Origin: Bacteroidales bacterium | GTDB taxonomy: Bacteria > Bacteroidota > Bacteroidia > Bacteroidales > F082 | Direction of reading: 5' to 3' | Assembly (NCBI GenBank): GCA_024400455.1 | Contig: JAKSMU010000005.1 | Coordinates: forward strand, 124,001-188,000 | Length of the DNA: 64,000 bases | Part shown: positions 1-48,460 of the stretch, piece by piece | How positions within the stretch are numbered: the stretch's first letter is position 1 | How the letters are laid out: every line of letters begins with the position of its first letter | Program-made: the position numbers and the translations under genes | The notes under the pieces: generated by a model | Database searches by the model: none | Seen by the model: the letters and a program-made list of their open reading frames with translations, nothing else | Told to the model about the DNA's origin: nothing

Positions 1-273
1 ATTCATGATTTCGTGCGTCAGGACACGGATGAGTTTTATCCACGATTGCTGCTCGTCGCGCTGGCGGTTACGTTCTAATATCCAGCGCATTCGGTTCAGC
101 GTGGTGTTGAATTTCCCATTTTCCTGAAAGCGGAAATTCATCTCGTCGTCCTCAAAGGCATCAAGCATATACGCCACCTTGTTCCTGTCCTTGCGCCGCA
201 CGATGATAGCCGTAGCGATGGCCGTCACCGCAACACTGGCGAAAACAATCAATATCACAAGCCAGATGCGCAT
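1..273 (-). CDS. Sensor histidine kinase, N-terminal part (cut by window edge)
   Basis: The reading frame starts at the ATG at 273-271 and runs off the window after 91 codons. Residues 3-25 form one hydrophobic membrane segment, followed by a basic stretch. Residues 85-91 read LTHEIMN, an H-box with the presumed phospho-accepting His at position 87. No large periplasmic sensor domain is present between membrane and H-box, so sensing may be cytoplasmic or in the membrane. The start codon overlaps the stop of the response-regulator gene by one base (TGATG), so the pair is probably translationally coupled. The kinase would phosphorylate the adjacent NtrC-type regulator. The ATPase domain is not visible here. 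Confidence 0.88.
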   Translation of the reverse strand, partial: MRIWLVILIVFASVAVTAIATAIIVRRKDRNKVAYMLDAFEDDEMNFRFQENGKFNTTLNRMRWILERNRQRDEQQSWIKLIRVLTHEIMN

Positions 274-1604
274 CAGATGCCGTATTTTTTAAGTTTGTTG
301 TATAAGGTAGGGCGACTGATATTCAGTGATTTCGCCACCAAAGTCAAATTGCCGTTATGTCTTTCCATAGCCTCGCGGATGGCTTTTTCCTCCGTTTCCT
401 CCAAGGTTTGCGTCTGCGTTTCGGTTGGCTTTGACACCGATGTGATTTTCAAATCGTTTGGCGAGAGCATAGTACTTTCTGCAAGGATAACCGCTTTTTC
501 GATGCAGTTCTGCAACTCACGGATATTGCCGCTCCACTGCAGATTTTCAAGCACTTCCCTACCCGATTCGCTCACACCATCGATGTTGCGATGGTATTTT
601 CCGTTGAATTGCCTGATGAAGATTTCCGCCAAGGGCAAAATATCGCTTTTGCGTTCACGAAGCGGCGGAAGATGCAGCGGCATGGTGTTGAGGCGGTAAT
701 ACAAATCCTCGCGGAAATGGCCTTCCCTGACCATTTTTTCAAGGTTCATATTGGTGGCGCAAATTAGACGGATGTCAATCGGAATTGACTTATTATCACC
801 GACTTTCGTAATGCTTCTGTTTTGTATGGCACGCAAAAGCTTAGCCTGAAGATGCAGCGGAATGTTACCAATTTCATCGAGGAAAAGCGTGCCGCCGTTG
901 GCTTGTTCGAACTTGCCGACGTGGTCGGCATGGGCATCGGTGAACGCACCTTTGACATGGCCGAAGAGTTCGCTTTCAAACAAAGTCTCAGTGATGGCTC
1001 CGGCATCGACACAGACCATCTGACGGTTGCTTCTTTTGCTCAAGCGATGGATTTCATTAGCCAAGACATCCTTTCCCGTGCCATTTTCGCCAGTAATCAA
1101 GACCGTTGCATCGGTTGGCGCAATCTTGCCGACATGATGACGGATGGTTTGCATGGCTTGGGTCTCGCCCCAAAACATTTCGACCTTATCATCTGATTCC
1201 CTGAATTTTGAAGAATCCTTGCAAGCCTTTTGGCAGGCATTGTTCAAGGTGGCAAGTAGCTTTTCGTTTTCCCAAGGTTTCACGATGAAATCGAAAGCGC
1301 CGCGACGCATTCCCTCAACCGCCAAGGCAATGTCGGCGTAAGCCGTAAACAGCACCACTTCAGTCTGCGGTGCCATGCGCTTGATTTCCGTCGTCCAGAA
1401 AAGGCCCTCGTTGCCCGTGTTGATGTCGGAGTAGAAATTCATGTCGAGCAACACCACATCGGGCTTAAAGGTCTCCATTTCGGAAACCAAAGTCGCGGGC
1501 GAAGCAATGATTTTCACCTGCCCGAAATGCGGCGGCAACAACAGCTTCAGCGCAGCGCGAATGCCCTGATTATCATCGACTACTAGGATTTTGCCTTTGT
1601 TCAT
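273..1604 (-). CDS. Sigma-54-dependent NtrC-family response regulator of the efflux operon
   Basis: This 443-residue protein has three domains: a receiver domain (about 4-120, phospho-acceptor Asp54 in VVLLDM), a sigma-54 activation AAA+ domain (Walker A GENGTGKD at 172-179, Walker B GGTLFLDE at 237-244) and a C-terminal Fis-type helix-turn-helix ending [14 protein letters not shown]. The sigma-54 contact loop reads GAFTDA (219-224) instead of the usual GAFTGA. I chose the ATG at 1604 because the longer frame opens with TTG at 1625 and adds residues before the usual KGKILVVDD start. It lies downstream of the ATPase gene in the same direction and one base overlaps the kinase gene. By its position and domains it should activate the sigma-54 promoter in front of the channel gene (10781-10796), which would give positive feedback on its own operon. 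Confidence 0.96.
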
Positions 1605-1640
1605 AGCATGTTTTATTCGTTGCAAATGTATGGAATTGCT

Positions 1641-10756: not shown

Positions 10757-10780
10757 AAAGTTTAAAGACAAAGTACTGCA

Positions 10781-10796
10781 AGCACATGCCGTGCCA
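10781..10796 (-). promoter_or_regulatory. Sigma-54 (-24/-12) promoter of the efflux operon
   Basis: Reading the minus strand, TGGCAC is followed by five bases and then GTGCT. The invariant GG and GC are ten bases apart, as in the consensus TGGCAC-N5-TTGC. The predicted transcription start is near 10770. Downstream genes include an NtrC-type activator, which only makes sense with a sigma-54 promoter. Confidence 0.85.
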
Positions 10797-14820: not shown

Positions 14821-16599
14821 TCATTCTTTTGCGGCAAACATTTTGTCAATCAAATCGTGATAGCGATTCATCACGACCTTGCGCTTCACTTTCAGCGTAG
14901 GCGTTAGGATTCCGGAAGCAATTGACCATTCGTCAGCTACAAATTCATATTTCTTAATCTTTTCAGTTTCGCCTAAAGAACCATTTATCTTATTGATTTC
15001 CTTTGCAAAACGCTTCAAGACATCAGGATTCTTAATCAATTCACGAGGATTTGTATATTGCACATCATGGCGTTGGCACCAACCTTTCATGAAATTGAAA
15101 TCCGGCAACACGATAGCACCTGCAAACTTCTGGTTTTCACCTACCACAACGGCTTGCTCAAAGAATGGTGAAGCAATAAATTTACCTTCAATCAATTCAG
15201 GATTGATGTATTTTCCACCCGATGTCTTGAAAAGATTTTTCAACCTTCCTGTGATTATCAATTGGTTATATTCATTCAAGATGCCCATGTCACCAGTATG
15301 GAACCAGCCATCTTCATCAATGACTTCCTTGGTGAGTTCTGGCTTCTTGTAATAACCCATCATCACATTGTGTCCACGGCAGATGATTTCGCCATTATCG
15401 GCAATCTTCACTTCCACGCCTGGCAATGGCTGGCCGACACTACCCACTTCCCTACCATGAGGGTTATTATTGCTGACTGCAATCACAGGAGAAGTTTCCG
15501 TCAAACCGTAACCTTCGTAAATCGGCATTTTGATGGCCGAAAAGAAACTTGCCATTTTTTTGGAAATACTGGCTGCACCCGAAACAACAATATCAATTTC
15601 ATCCGCACCCATATTTTCCCTTATCTTGCTGTAAACCAAATTATCGGCAATTTGTAATTTAAGTGCATAAAACCAATTGCACTTTGCATCCTGAACTTTA
15701 TACTTCTCGCCTAACTTCAACGCCCAGTGGAAAATGCTTTTCGAAAAGCCTTTCATCTTTTTGCCTGATGAATAGATGCTTTCATAGAAACGCTCCAAAA
15801 CACGAGGAACTGAGCAAAACATATTTGGACGGATTTCCTTCATATCGGACGCTATAGTGGCCAGACTTTCAGCATAATAAATCGACATGCCCATATATTG
15901 GTAGGCGTAAATCAAGGCACGCTCGTAGGCATGACAAACCGGCAGAAAACTGAAAGCACGGGTGGATTTCGGAGAGAAAGTTTGAACGAAATTCTTAAAC
16001 TGGCTCATCAGATTGAAATTCGAGAGCATGACACCTTTAGGCGTCCCAGTCGTTCCCGATGTGTAGATGATAGTGGCACACTGCATCTCATCTACAGCAT
16101 TCTTTCGTGCTTCAAGTTCTTCTTTATGAGGATGTTGCTCACCTAATTCCATCAGTTGATCGAAATACGGATAAACCTCACGGTTAATCATCGTATAAAT
16201 CAATTTCAATTGTGGTGCATCAGGCAGAACATTTGTAATCTTGTTCATCACGGCTAATCCATCAGTGATAACCATTTTAGCCTCACAATCGCTCAAAATG
16301 AAGCGATAATCCTCTTCACTGATAGTCGGATAAATCGGCACGCTGATTGCGCCGACCTGATTGATAGCCATGTCTATCATGTTCCATTCGGGTCGATTAT
16401 TCAGAATTAAGGCAACCTTGTCTTCCTTCTGAATGCCCAACTCAATGAAAGCATTACTTAGCTTATTAACGCATTCAATATATTCTTGGATGCTATACTT
16501 TCTCCATTCGCCGTTTTTCTTTCCCGCCAGCGCAACTGTCTGATTAGGAAACTTTTCAATATAATTCGAAAGGAGATCGAATATACGTTTAACTTCCAT
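14821..16599 (-). CDS. Long-chain fatty-acid--CoA ligase (AMP-forming)
   Basis: This 592-residue ANL-superfamily enzyme shows the AMP-binding P-loop IIYTSGTTGTPKGVML (about 176-191), the GYGLTET motif (about 355-361), the GWFHTGDMG aspartate motif and the C-terminal Lys region ITGRLKNLFKTSGGKYINPELIE. It resembles the FadD15/FACL group of soluble long-chain acyl-CoA synthetases and would activate exogenous or recycled fatty acids. No other beta-oxidation genes are nearby. It ends 17 bases from the shared terminator with speA. Confidence 0.95.
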   Translation of the reverse strand: MEVKRIFDLLSNYIEKFPNQTVALAGKKNGEWRKYSIQEYIECVNKLSNAFIELGIQKEDKVALILNNRPEWNMIDMAINQVGAISVPIYPTISEEDYRFILSDCEAKMVITDGLAVMNKITNVLPDAPQLKLIYTMINREVYPYFDQLMELGEQHPHKEELEARKNAVDEMQCATIIYTSGTTGTPKGVMLSNFNLMSQFKNFVQTFSPKSTRAFSFLPVCHAYERALIYAYQYMGMSIYYAESLATIASDMKEIRPNMFCSVPRVLERFYESIYSSGKKMKGFSKSIFHWALKLGEKYKVQDAKCNWFYALKLQIADNLVYSKIRENMGADEIDIVVSGAASISKKMASFFSAIKMPIYEGYGLTETSPVIAVSNNNPHGREVGSVGQPLPGVEVKIADNGEIICRGHNVMMGYYKKPELTKEVIDEDGWFHTGDMGILNEYNQLIITGRLKNLFKTSGGKYINPELIEGKFIASPFFEQAVVVGENQKFAGAIVLPDFNFMKGWCQRHDVQYTNPRELIKNPDVLKRFAKEINKINGSLGETEKIKKYEFVADEWSIASGILTPTLKVKRKVVMNRYHDLIDKMFAAKE

Positions 16600-16678
16600 A
16601 AATTAAAAAAATGCTCGTTTTCAAATTGCAAATATAACAATTTTCAAAAGACAAAGTTTTATTTATGAAAAAATTGCA

Positions 16679-45599: not shown

Positions 45600-45848
45600 T
45601 TACCCTTCCTCAAATTCATCAAACAGATTAAGTTGGTTTTCCGTCAGGTATAATTCCGGCGGAACTTCATACTCGTATGCAGTAATGAAGCGGGAAATAT
45701 TTTTCTTGATTAGCTTAATGGGCGTCGTTTTCCTGGCCTTGCAATAATTTCGCAACGACTTATACTGACCTGCAGTTAACTTAAAGGTGACTGCATAATA
45801 CTTATAGTTTCTGCGCTTACGCTTCCCTTTTCTTTTCCCATTATCCAT
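45600..45848 (-). CDS. Small basic protein of unknown function
   Basis: This 82-residue protein starts at the ATG at 45848 with a very basic head (MDNGKRKGKRKRRNYKYY). It continues with VTFKLTAGQYKSLRNYCKARKTTPIKLIKKNISRFI, which resembles a strand-helix-helix (ribbon-helix-helix-like) DNA-binding segment, and ends in an acidic tail (NQLNLFDEFEEG). I do not recognise the family. Its position between recR and an orphan sigma-54 regulator gives no clear role. The codon usage looks like that of its neighbours. Confidence 0.7.
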   Translation of the reverse strand: MDNGKRKGKRKRRNYKYYAVTFKLTAGQYKSLRNYCKARKTTPIKLIKKNISRFITAYEYEVPPELYLTENQLNLFDEFEEG

Positions 45849-45925
45849 AACCACTTGATTTTTACGACACAAAATAAAGCATAATTATTCAAAAAAACAA
45901 GGAAAGATGGAAAAGAAACGAATCA

Positions 45926-47254
45926 CTACAATTCGATGCCATACAAATGCATCTTATTGTATAAGGTTTTGCGGTCAATTTGTAGCAGTTTAGCAGCCAC
46001 GGTCTTGTTGCCTCTCGCCTTTTGCAAAGCAGCTTCAATCTGTTGTTTTTCGTTTTCAGGTCGCAAAGCCCAATCGTCTTCATTTTTCTCTATATTCTTG
46101 ATTGCATGGACAAAAACCGGCAAATCATCCAATTCAATGGTATCGCCCTCGGCAAACAAGACACACCGGCGAATGACATTACGCAGTTCGCGCAGATTGC
46201 CATTCCAAGTCTGCTTTTTCATCTCGGCCAAAGCTTCAACCGAAATGCCTTTTACTTCTTTCAGCAATTCTTCATTAGCCTGATTGATAAAGAAATAGAC
46301 GAACTCATCTAAATCATCCATTCTATCACGCAAAGGCGGAACCGTCAAAGAGAACTCATTAATGCGATGATATAAATCCTGGCGGAAACGGCCTTCATCA
46401 ATAGCCAGTTCTATGTTCTCATTTGTTGCCGCAATAATGCGCACATCCACATTGATGTCAGTTGCCGACCCCACAGGTCTCACCTTCTGTTCCTGTAACG
46501 CCCGAAGCAATTGCATTTGGACCTCGTATGGCAAATTTCCAACTTCATCAAGAAAAACCGTGCCACCTTTTGCTTGTTCAAAAACACCTTTCTTATCAGA
46601 TATTGCAGAAGTGAAAGAGCCTTTCAAATGGCCGAACAACTCGCTTGGAGCCAATTCCTTCGACAGACTTCCACAATCCACAGGAATAAACGGACCATCT
46701 TTTCTCAAGCTGCAATCGTGAATCATTCGGGCAATATATTCCTTCCCCGTGCCACTTTCTCCCAAAATCAAGACAGAAAACTTTGTCGGAGCAACCAATT
46801 CAACATGCTTGTATAGCCGCTGAATTACAGGGCTATTTCCTTTTACCATTTCCTTGCGTTGCGGCTGAAACACTTCTGGCGAATCGCTTTCCGAGGAAAT
46901 GGCCGCTTCAATCTTTTCCTGCAAAACGCTCGGATTGATTGGCTTTTTCAAGTAATCGAAGGCTCCTATTTTCATGGCAGACACAGCGGTCTGAACCTCA
47001 GCATAACCCGTCATCACAATGAAAGGCACCTGGTTTTTCAGTTTTTCCCTAACCCACGACATAAGGATAATTCCATCGCCATCCGGCAAACGCAAATCTG
47101 TCAGAATCAAATCATAAGATTTAGAAGAAACGGCTATCTTTGCCTGTTCGTAACGCGAAACCAAATCGGCTTCATAATTATTCTTTTTCAGCCAGGTTTG
47201 AATCATGACACCAAATGCGGCATCGTCTTCTACTATTAGGATTCTGTGTTTCAT
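45926..47254 (-). CDS. Orphan sigma-54-dependent NtrC-family response regulator
   Basis: This 442-residue protein has a receiver domain (about 1-118, phospho-acceptor Asp53 in LILTDLRLPDGDG), a sigma-54 AAA+ domain (Walker A GESGTGKE at 165-172, Walker B GGTVFLDEVG) and a C-terminal Fis-type helix-turn-helix (VAAKLLQIDRKTLYNKMHLYGIEL). The sigma-54 contact loop reads GSFTSA (212-217) instead of GAFTGA. No histidine kinase gene is adjacent. I start at the ATG at 47254 (MKHRILIVEDD); 47272 is an alternative. TTGTGGAA half-sites in front of this gene and in front of the upstream lipoprotein gene suggest it controls both. Confidence 0.95.
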   Translation of the reverse strand: MKHRILIVEDDAAFGVMIQTWLKKNNYEADLVSRYEQAKIAVSSKSYDLILTDLRLPDGDGIILMSWVREKLKNQVPFIVMTGYAEVQTAVSAMKIGAFDYLKKPINPSVLQEKIEAAISSESDSPEVFQPQRKEMVKGNSPVIQRLYKHVELVAPTKFSVLILGESGTGKEYIARMIHDCSLRKDGPFIPVDCGSLSKELAPSELFGHLKGSFTSAISDKKGVFEQAKGGTVFLDEVGNLPYEVQMQLLRALQEQKVRPVGSATDINVDVRIIAATNENIELAIDEGRFRQDLYHRINEFSLTVPPLRDRMDDLDEFVYFFINQANEELLKEVKGISVEALAEMKKQTWNGNLRELRNVIRRCVLFAEGDTIELDDLPVFVHAIKNIEKNEDDWALRPENEKQQIEAALQKARGNKTVAAKLLQIDRKTLYNKMHLYGIEL

Positions 47255-47259
47255 AGGCG

Positions 47260-47295
47260 CAAAAATACTCATTTTCCACAATTCCACAACTCTTT
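47260..47295 (-). promoter_or_regulatory. Putative promoter of the orphan regulator gene
   Basis: On the minus strand, TATTTTTG (47267-47260) fits TAnnTTTG, and GTTG about 19 bases upstream may be the -33 element. The start would fall next to the ATG at 47254, so the message may be nearly leaderless. Confidence 0.5.
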
Positions 47296-47334
47296 TTCCT
47301 ACAAAACAATATTTCCACAAAATTATTGTGGAAA
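47274..47334. promoter_or_regulatory. Operator cluster of TTGTGGAA half-sites before the orphan regulator
   Basis: A perfect 23-bp inverted repeat, TTTCCACAA-AATTA-TTGTGGAAA, lies at 47312-47334. Two direct copies of TTCCACAA lie at 47274-47281 and 47282-47289, inside the putative promoter spacer. The arrangement suggests autoregulation, with the direct copies placed to block the promoter. Confidence 0.72.
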
Positions 47335-47347
47335 ACGCAAAAGAAAC

Positions 47348-47380
47348 AAAGAAGCCCTGCATATGCAAGGCTTCTTTTGA
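47348..47380 (-). terminator. Terminator after the coiled-coil lipoprotein gene
   Basis: The stem AAAGAAGCC / GGCTTCTTT encloses the palindrome TGCATATGCA. It lies 23 bases downstream of the lipoprotein stop codon on the minus strand and separates it from the regulator's own promoter. Confidence 0.75.
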
Positions 47381-47402
47381 AAATTGAAAACGAGCAGAAA
47401 TT

Positions 47403-48290
47403 TTATTTGATGGAAATGATCAAATAATTAGATTGGTTCCAGAATGCTTCCTTATTGGTGATGTTCAAAGTCTGAGCACCATTTTCGTCCGTTACCAACT
47501 CATAGCTGTTGGTTGGATGCTTGGTCAATATGGTTGCTTTCTTGGTATTCAACGGAATAGATGAAATTTCGCGTCTGTCAGCCTTGACAAAATTACTGTT
47601 ATCAAAAGCTTGGTCAACAAGTTGCTTAGCTTGGAAGATGCCGCCCTTGGTCATCAAGCCTTTTTCCATAAGGACTTGCGGGGTAGCAATGCAATACCAA
47701 ACGCTATTCAAAGCAGCATCCTGATTATTAATGGTTTGCTGTTGAACAGAATTTAAAGTATTGAGATTTTCATTTTCAGAACTAAGATTTTCTATGCTCT
47801 CATTCAAACCGCTTACCTGTTCATTGAGTTCGCTGATTTGAACATCTTTCAAATTCAGTTCTTCTTTCAACGAATTGATATAGGTGTCTTTTGCATCAAG
47901 TTGCTCTTTCAAACGGTTTATGGTTTCCGTCAAAGCCTTGGACTTGGCGCCTTGTGATGACAGTTGCTTTTCAAGATCGGCAATCTTCTGGTGGTTTTCT
48001 TGCAATGTCTGCTGGATGGCATTGATTTCAGCGACAGCTCTATTTGTGTCACCTTCTTGATTCTCAATCATAATGATACCTTCGGCAGCACGTACCGACT
48101 CAAGAGCATTCTCAATTTCATTGATAGTGCGAAGAGCAGAATCGAAATCGCCGTTTGCAGCAGCTGCAACGACTTGAAGCGAATCTCTTTCGGCTAACAA
48201 AGCCTGGTACTCTTTAGATTTTTCCACATTCCTACAGGAAGTAGCAAACAGTGCTACAAGTGCTAAAGCGATGATAGATAATTTTCTCAT
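47403..48290 (-). CDS. Coiled-coil lipoprotein driven by a sigma-54 promoter
   Basis: This 295-residue protein has a lipoprotein signal MRKLSIIALALVALFATSC (lipidated Cys19), a long heptad coiled coil (about 70-190: LQENHQKIADLEKQLSSQ, LNLKDVQISELNEQ, ENLSSENENLNTL) and a globular C-terminal domain (about 195-295: YCIATPQVLMEKGLMTKGGIF). I recall Bacteroidetes lipoproteins of this layout labelled as Cbp1-type collagen-binding adhesins; I cannot check whether this is one. I start at the ATG at 48290, because the longer frame to 48314 starts upstream of the predicted transcription start near 48310. The orphan regulator gene lies downstream. Confidence 0.88.
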   Translation of the reverse strand: MRKLSIIALALVALFATSCRNVEKSKEYQALLAERDSLQVVAAAANGDFDSALRTINEIENALESVRAAEGIIMIENQEGDTNRAVAEINAIQQTLQENHQKIADLEKQLSSQGAKSKALTETINRLKEQLDAKDTYINSLKEELNLKDVQISELNEQVSGLNESIENLSSENENLNTLNSVQQQTINNQDAALNSVWYCIATPQVLMEKGLMTKGGIFQAKQLVDQAFDNSNFVKADRREISSIPLNTKKATILTKHPTNSYELVTDENGAQTLNITNKEAFWNQSNYLIISIK

Positions 48291-48320
48291 TTTTTTTAAA
48301 TATAAAGTTTCCATTTTTAA

Positions 48321-48336
48321 AGCACATTTCGTGCCT
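48321..48336 (-). promoter_or_regulatory. Sigma-54 (-24/-12) promoter of the lipoprotein gene
   Basis: On the minus strand, AGGCAC, five bases, then GTGCT; GG and GC are ten bases apart. The 16-mer GGCACGAAATGTGCTT differs from the efflux-operon promoter (GGCACGGCATGTGCTT) at only two positions. The predicted start is near 48310, 20 bases before the ATG. Confidence 0.82.
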
Positions 48337-48405
48337 AAACTTGTTTATTTAATATAACATATTGATTACAAATTACTTACAAATAGATTTAACAACAAAT
48401 AATAA

Positions 48406-48460
48406 TGTGGAAAACTGTGGAATCTCCGCTTCCGCCACTATAAATTGTAGAAATCCACAA
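48406..48460. promoter_or_regulatory. Upstream activator sites for the orphan regulator
   Basis: Two direct copies of TGTGGAA lie at 48406-48412 and 48416-48422, centred about 104 bp before the predicted start. The near-palindrome TTGTAGAAATCCACAA lies at 48445-48460, about 143 bp before it. Both use the same half-site as the operator cluster before the regulator gene. Confidence 0.68.

Follow-up and report, generated by a model that had tools for sequence, protein, structure and literature searches.

A predicted σ54-driven adhesin-family lipoprotein message of Bacteroidales with a conserved 3' untranslated element complementary to nrdD leaders

Introduction

In GlmY/GlrR and Qrr/LuxO, sigma-54 (σ54) and an NtrC-type activator drive a regulatory RNA that is the product of a stand-alone small-RNA gene. 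In the CpxP/CpxQ pair of Enterobacteriales, as a review describes it, a response regulator switches on an envelope-protein gene whose unusually conserved 3' untranslated region (3' UTR) acts as a small RNA; protein and RNA come from one promoter, and the targets of CpxQ are inner-membrane proteins (PMC9438474). Here we describe a locus of a Bacteroidales bacterium (GTDB family F082; assembly GCA_024400455.1, contig JAKSMU010000005.1, positions 124,001 to 188,000 of the forward strand), in which a lipoprotein gene of the Cbp1 family stands between a predicted σ54 promoter and the gene of an NtrC-type regulator, and carries a conserved 15-mer, CTGCTCGTTTTCAAT, behind its stop codon. The whole stretch of 64,000 nucleotides is called the window and is numbered from its first letter. 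We consider it likely that the σ54 promoter and the regulator, acting on TTCCACA repeats, drive a message whose 3' UTR provides a small RNA pairing with the leaders of two genes, nrdD and an acyl-CoA ligase-like one. Unlike CpxP/CpxQ, the locus has a predicted σ54 promoter with NtrC-type sites and belongs to Bacteroidales, and its predicted targets are an anaerobic ribonucleotide reductase and the ligase-like gene rather than inner-membrane proteins; unlike GlmY and Qrr, the RNA would form the end of a message that also encodes a protein.

Among the RNAs described in Bacteroides thetaiotaomicron, GibS likewise pairs around start codons by means of a conserved unstructured seed, and 21 UTR-derived small-RNA candidates have been listed in the same organism (PMC7366714); in the portion of that paper available to us there is no mention of the element, parent gene, promoter type or targets described here. 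SnoA, the subject of a preprint, is also a clade-restricted Bacteroides RNA with a conserved seed predicted to be unpaired; it is reported to act with HcpR at promoter DNA in nitrosative stress, whereas the complements found here lie in predicted mRNA leaders (PMC13370916). The Bacteroides fragilis protein Cbp1 (BF0586) is the collagen adhesin described in a paper whose main text yielded neither 'promoter' nor 'regulator' to a term search (PMC3949742). The text available to us of a σ54 regulon survey names other Bacteroidota targets (PMC12316311), and raised nrdD mRNA is reported for a deletion of the pneumococcal Ccn small RNAs, in a paper whose abstract sets this finding beside zinc stress (PMC11478796). 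In the open-access literature searched we found no report of the element, of a σ54-driven 3'-UTR small RNA in Bacteroidota, or of base pairing to nrdD.

Results

The lipoprotein message ends in a conserved 15-mer between two hairpins

On the minus strand of the window, in order of transcription, there follow a paired site, a −24/−12 element, the lipoprotein gene, a terminator, further half-sites and the gene of the NtrC-type regulator (Table 1). A scan of genome contigs for relatives gave 367 encoding stretches, of which the best 80 were used. In 73 of these 80 the lipoprotein gene immediately precedes that of the regulator, and together with the window they make up the 74 loci analysed below. 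As for the remaining seven, the contigs L025 and L079 begin just before the regulator (L025 still shows the 15-mer CTGCTCGTTTTCAAT), and L072, L076, L078 and L080 have no such lipoprotein upstream of it. In L026 the place of the lipoprotein directly upstream of the regulator is taken by an acyl-CoA ligase-like gene (L026:3195-4982), a relative of one of the predicted targets.

The 15-mer is found between the lipoprotein stop codon and the terminator, with no change in 69 of the 74 loci, and the positions around it in these 69 are less conserved except for a short T run on its 3' side. Four of the exceptions (L058, L063, L065 and L068) have tandem lipoproteins, where the upstream copy is followed by an exact 15-mer and the downstream copy by the diverged form CTGCCCGTTTCAT; the fifth, from Paludibacter (L075), has no 15-mer and keeps the pair of upstream activator sites described below. 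Tandem duplication of the lipoprotein gene was seen in L061 and L070 as well as in these four. Across the order, the exact 15-mer occurs at 18 places in 17 of 393 genomes: five genomes of the same genus have one intergenic copy each, after the lipoprotein, and the remaining 13 places, which include one in a genome of that genus, fall within open reading frames (ORFs) and were read as chance.

RNA folding of the 69 sequences predicts the 15-mer to be unpaired, with a mean probability of 0.85 compared to 0.49 for the whole RNA; this mean includes the window RNA folded past its terminator (0.23 unpaired), which gives 0.86 when cut at the terminator. Counted on 48 of the 69 sequences, the two helices flanking the 15-mer are paired in 98.5% of cells (87.9% in shuffles) and show 109 cells with two-sided changes, against 32.1 in shuffles that ignore the relatedness of the sequences. 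Sliding one helix partner by one to three columns lowers pairing to 29–45%. In the first hairpin, in the window as in relatives, the last lipoprotein codons pair with the stop codon, and a change from Ile to Val on one arm or from Ile to Thr on the other keeps one of its pairs as AU, GU or GC. Rfam gave nothing at gathering score in the window stretches tested and no matches at gathering in the 12 loci submitted; hits to gltS (33.2 bits, gathering 47.5, opposite strand) and csRNA (26.5 bits, gathering 57) fell below that score and were taken as chance. The 3' UTR bearing the 15-mer likely acts as a small RNA, whose ends, processing and effect are all predicted.

The complement of the 15-mer precedes the nrdD start codon

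The 2.9-Mb genome holds one exact copy of CTGCTCGTTTTCAAT and a single place with one mismatch, which is the complement ATTGAAAACGAGCAC. This complement reaches to within 5 nt of the start codon of nrdD, whose product is an anaerobic ribonucleoside-triphosphate reductase (TIGR02827, over cut-off), and would allow 14 consecutive bases of seed and leader to pair. The same leader has a second AACGAGCA near its predicted 5' end, where a second copy of AAAACGAGCA lies at L082:1446-1455 (C12:36287-36296 in the window's own genome).

Matches to nrdD were found in 22 of 30 genus genomes, at 26 loci, and 21 leaders were read; left out were L250 and L252 (each a second piece of a genome in the count) and L247, L248 and L251 (no readable leader). 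The core AACGAGCA is present in 20 of the 21. Their longest complements average 10.5 nt, a value above the highest among 3000 shuffled 15-mers (10.1; mean 5.2), and the predicted duplex energies range from −11.7 to −20.8 kcal/mol compared to a mean of −7.0 and a lowest value of −15.9 in shuffled leaders. A complement of at least 8 nt occurs in 20 of the leaders, the sense seed of that length in one. In four of the five members of a divergent nrdD group the core lies 25–28 nt before the ATG, which argues against a mere start-codon motif.

Genome-wide, the pattern AACGAGCA-N0-30-ATG occurs at 48 places in the window's own genome (16 for the reversed control), and the only gene leaders among them outside ORFs, by the criteria used, are those of nrdD and the acyl-CoA ligase-like gene. 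The pattern GAAAACGAGCA-N0-15-ATG has a match in 51 of 60 genus genomes; the 30 loci read included eight clear gene leaders (nrdD in seven, ligase-like in one), and all others except L156 and L163 were copies within ORFs, copies of the element itself or places preceding short frames. In L156 and L163, GAAAACGAGCA stands at a gene end, 6–8 nt before an ORF of 228–230 residues (MRKPIEER...), either as a possible pairing site or by chance.

The ligase-like leaders were read in 28 of 30 loci (one of the 28, L361, is a fragment without a visible true leader). AACGAGC is present in seven, five of which have complements of 13–14 nt, a form with one base deleted in five, and neither in 16. The regulator's own leader has a complement of 9–13 nt close to the start in 16 of 30 loci of the group L045–L077, all of them within L045–L066; this group was set by locus number and not by a tree, comprises 30 loci with the lipoprotein and excludes L073, which belongs to the first group. 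Complements of at least 9 nt in the regulator leader amount to 16 of all 74 loci.

A predicted σ54 promoter with TTCCACA activator sites

The original prediction, made from the letters of the window, had described a σ54 module consisting of a lipoprotein, a regulator and a family of sites. We recover all of these, and their conservation in relatives makes the case stronger than was claimed. The −24/−12 16-mer GGCACGAAATGTGCTT lies one base away from where it had been placed, and the efflux promoter at 10780-10795 does match it at 14 of 16 positions. Within the window, GGCACGAAATGTGCTT with up to three mismatches occurs at three places including itself (0.77 expected); 5 of 100 shuffles reach three, so the promoter similarity by itself is modest evidence. 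Conservation is more telling: a strict GG-N10-GC element with a score of at least 7 and no more than 110 bp from the start is present in 55 of the 74 loci (4.9% in dinucleotide shuffles), and the relaxed GGYAY-N6-[TGA]G in 71 (2.9% in mononucleotide shuffles). Elements were read against the familiar consensus sequences of σ54 and Bacteroidota promoters. The genome has rpoN, and four strong and three weak matches to the σ54 activator domain. One further σ54 module in the window comprises another NtrC-type regulator (273-1625, minus strand; GAFTDA loop by eye) and the promoter at 10780-10795 (minus strand), and adjoins genes resembling ABC permeases, an ATPase, and membrane-fusion and TolC-like proteins.

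Upstream of the lipoprotein, a direct pair of TTCCACA half-sites and a near-palindrome are centred about 104 and 143 bp from the transcription start, as originally described, if the start is near 48310, where we place it by the usual promoter spacing. The half-sites also recur before the regulator, as a direct pair and as the palindrome TTTCCACAAAATTATTGTGGAAA. The exact half-site TTGTGGAA occurs 11 times in the window (4.8 expected; reached in 0 of 100 shuffles), four of these before the regulator. Loss of the half-sites in relatives that keep the genes had been named beforehand as an outcome that would speak against the module; the sites upstream of the lipoprotein are in fact kept along with the genes. 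The upstream activator site (UAS) pair TTCCACA-N3-TTCCACA, with up to two mismatches, is found within 250 bp in 68 of 74 loci, compared to 0.6% of dinucleotide shuffles, and is exact in 57; 69 loci have at least two copies of TTCCACA or TGTGGAA in this upstream stretch of 250 bp. Where promoter element and pair are both present (52 loci), the pair mostly begins 82–87, 103–106 or 122–126 bp from −24. Such steps of about two helical turns are compatible with looping, and may partly reflect the choice among tandem sites. An exact half-site before the regulator is kept in just 24 of the 74 loci, so autoregulation through that site would be lineage-specific. Taken together, these patterns of conservation lend good support to a σ54 module in which the neighbouring regulator acts through TTCCACA sites to switch on a coiled-coil lipoprotein.

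Elsewhere in the genome there is a single exact pair (C10:16156-16172), which was considered as a σ54 target and set aside: it has a housekeeping-like −7 box and no −24/−12 was seen, and hence no second σ54 target of this kind was found in the genome. The pair is part of three tandem TTCCACA-like units with 10-bp spacing (C10:16146-16172, L260) before another lipoprotein-like gene.

The regulator probably had a neighbouring kinase

The regulator matches PF00072, PF00158 and PF02954, each above its cut-off. The textbook σ54 contact loop is GAFTGA; here it reads GSFTSA in 78 and GAFTSA in 3 of 81 sequences, the Phe and Thr being kept and the neighbouring residues differing. A hybrid-kinase homologue is the next gene, at most 90 bp from the regulator end, in 37 of the 80 relatives, two of them from Paludibacter, and lies about 800 bp away in two more (L007 and L025). 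It is arranged tail to tail with the regulator in 36 of the 37 (L067 is cut by a contig end), often within a few bases, and in the same direction in L077. HisKA, HATPase and receiver domains were present in the three kinases checked (L016, L030 and L075); its C-terminus resembles an HPt domain by eye, and the kinase-bearing loci include L003, L016, L030–L044 and L075. The window contains no homologue of this kinase at E 1e-5, in a search confined to the window, and no kinase-like ORF was found around the locus. The regulator had originally been called an orphan. That holds locally, no kinase adjoining it in the window, and it probably did not arise as one, given the kinase homologue beside it in 37 of 80 relatives; the lineage of the window has probably moved or lost the kinase. 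An ORF of 90 residues without a family match above cut-off follows the regulator (45600-45872, minus strand).

The module seems confined to one lineage of the Cbp1 family

The lipoprotein scores 262 bits (cut-off 90) against the NCBIfam model NF052320 for Cbp1 collagen-binding adhesins, over profile positions 2-286 of 286. It is accordingly a Cbp1 family member by its profile match, like Cbp1 of B. fragilis. Cbp1-type matches occur in 150 of 198 genomes of the order, 122 of them over the cut-off. The 30 best-scoring Cbp1 loci from other families of the order differ from the locus in the window: the strict −24/−12 element, the exact paired site, a 15-mer-like element and a σ54 activator within 1.5 kb were each found in 0 of the 30 (the start codon is doubtful in L206, L215, L223 and L225). 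An earlier reading of 14 of these 30 loci had given one loose promoter-like match, in L216. Because these loci are without the features of the module, the σ54/3'-UTR arrangement seems not to be general for Cbp1 and looks like a lineage-specific rewiring.

Table 1. Features of the lipoprotein-regulator locus and of a predicted target gene in the window
Feature	Position	Strand	Basis
15-mer CTGCTCGTTTTCAAT, predicted small-RNA seed	47383..47397	-	exact in 69/74 loci
Hairpin 1 across coding sequence (CDS) end and stop codon	47403..47427	-	folding and covariation
Terminator hairpin with T-rich run (hairpin 2)	47336..47377	-	folding and covariation
−24/−12 element GGCACGAAATGTGCTT, predicted σ54 promoter	48320..48335	-	conservation in relatives
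UAS, direct pair TTCCACA-N3-TTCCACA, 10-bp period (TTCCACAGTTTTCCACA)	48406..48422	-	sequence and conservation
Near-palindrome TTGTAGAAATCCACAA	48445..48460		read from sequence
Palindrome TTTCCACAAAATTATTGTGGAAA before regulator, possible autoregulation	47312..47334		sequence
Direct pair of TTCCACAA half-sites before regulator	47274..47289		sequence
Cbp1-family lipoprotein CDS, start MRKLSIIALALVALFATSC; longest ORF opens at 48314	47403..48290	-	NF052320 match
NtrC-type response regulator (REC, σ54 AAA+, Fis-type helix-turn-helix)	45926..47254	-	domain matches
13-nt seed complement TTGAAAACGAGCA in ligase-like leader, predicted second target	16612..16624	-	sequence
Acyl-CoA ligase-like CDS, predicted target gene	14821..16599	-	best models FadD11 and long-chain acyl-CoA ligase, both below curated cut-offs

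Discussion

What can be read directly from the DNA is how the genes are ordered, the promoter element and its paired sites, the 15-mer between its hairpins, its single genome copy and the complements in the leaders. From these we propose that a sensor kinase would phosphorylate the regulator, which would bind the paired sites and loop to the σ54 polymerase at −24/−12; this polymerase would transcribe the lipoprotein message, which would either be cut near the stop-codon hairpin or act whole. The single-stranded CTGCTCGTTTTCAAT would then pair just before the nrdD start codon, most likely blocking translation, and the ligase-like leader would be targeted in the same way. In the L045–L066 group, the complement in the regulator's leader would close a negative feedback loop. 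The promoter and regulator steps, which rest on conserved DNA and known domains, are the most likely course of events at the DNA, and the RNA step, supported by the conserved seed, the covarying hairpins and the complements kept in the leaders, is the most likely use of the 3' UTR; a separate RNA species and the sign of its effect are what we infer. We give a little better than an even chance to the full form of the proposal, namely a two-component system that yields an adhesin-family lipoprotein and a small RNA from one σ54 message, the tail shutting down NrdD and, in one group, feeding back via the leader of its own activator.

Several observations weigh against this proposal. The nrdD leader of L240 has lost the core. 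In a test that ignores relatedness, a match of at least 8 nt to 20 of the 21 nrdD leaders was also reached by one shuffled 15-mer, because conservation extends over the entire region before the ATG; this conserved region runs into CACATTAT and may partly serve translation. AAAACGAGCA is not enriched genome-wide (16 against 14 in the reversed control), its placement alone being unusual. The ligase complement is patchy, in 7 of 28 leaders plus 5 with a 1-nt deletion and none in L348–L354, and 14 of 30 regulators in L045–L077 are without a complement. Further pair types in the flanking helices are within the range of the shuffles (18 against 17.5; 273 of 500), and two-sided changes affect only one of seven pairs in the stop-codon helix and six of seven in the terminator helix, which supplies most of the covariation. 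At the DNA level, the strict GG-N10-GC element is missing in 19 of the 74 loci, and loosely matched UAS pairs are barely enriched in the genome (39 against 32).

The 15-mer and its complements might instead be DNA operators of a repressor still to be named, usable in either orientation, or the pairing partner of the RNA might be promoter DNA and not messages. Orientation does not matter to a DNA site, the copies at nrdD, at the ligase-like gene and at the L045–L066 regulators lie close downstream of likely housekeeping promoters, the 3'-UTR copy is itself upstream of the regulator, and SnoA of B. thetaiotaomicron is reported to act at promoter DNA together with a regulator (preprint PMC13370916). 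However, the leader copies are read almost uniformly as the complement on the mRNA strand, the 3'-UTR copy is predicted to be unpaired between covarying helices and is fixed over 15 nt whereas the nrdD leaders keep mainly an 8-nt core, and the displaced core of the divergent nrdD group is probably inside the transcript; we therefore regard both of these readings as unlikely. It is also quite unlikely that the 15-mer serves the lipoprotein message alone, acting in cis on stability, termination, localisation or protein binding, and that its match at nrdD is incidental. Its position between stop codon and terminator wherever it is present would suit such a role, but the sole place in the 2.9-Mb genome that matches with one mismatch is found immediately in front of the nrdD start, and the complement core recurs in nearly all nrdD leaders.

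If the RNA does pair with its targets, it could activate them instead of repressing them, or the nrdD leader could be a sponge for the RNA, and the two AACGAGCA copies in the window genome's own nrdD leader, one of them near the predicted 5' end, would fit either. Pairing next to a start codon usually blocks translation initiation, however, and we hold these variants to be improbable. A further alternative is the original one, a σ54 switch for one envelope lipoprotein with an orphan regulator and nothing else in the module. The conservation of promoter and sites and the lack of a kinase homologue in the window agree with it; the hybrid kinase next door in 37 of 80 relatives and the conserved 3'-UTR element with its leader complements do not, and it now appears very improbable. 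Thus the σ54 lipoprotein module with its TTCCACA sites stands on its conservation, whereas the orphan regulator and the self-contained switch probably do not stand with it: the module is probably not a switch for one protein, because its conserved 3' RNA element has complements in the leaders of nrdD, of the ligase-like gene and, in one group, of the regulator.

Repressive pairing in the nrdD leader would have a direct consequence for the cell: since the tail of the message is predicted to pair with the nrdD message, one likely σ54 switch would set both a surface protein and the supply of DNA building blocks. Its protein arm would change the surface, while its RNA arm would lower the oxygen-sensitive anaerobic ribonucleotide reductase. 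Class III reductases are sensitive to oxygen, and lowering NrdD while making a surface-attachment protein could therefore suit life near oxygenated mucosa. Because seed, targets and controls are all short and exact, the claim is open to reporter assays. The locus gives one lineage of the Cbp1 family a regulatory context and points to the sites and the probable kinase of an uncharacterised activator. If the proposal is true, Bacteroidales would have a CpxQ-like dual-output message driven by a σ54 activator, whose best-supported target is the DNA-precursor enzyme of an anaerobe, and remodelling of the surface would be linked to DNA-precursor supply.

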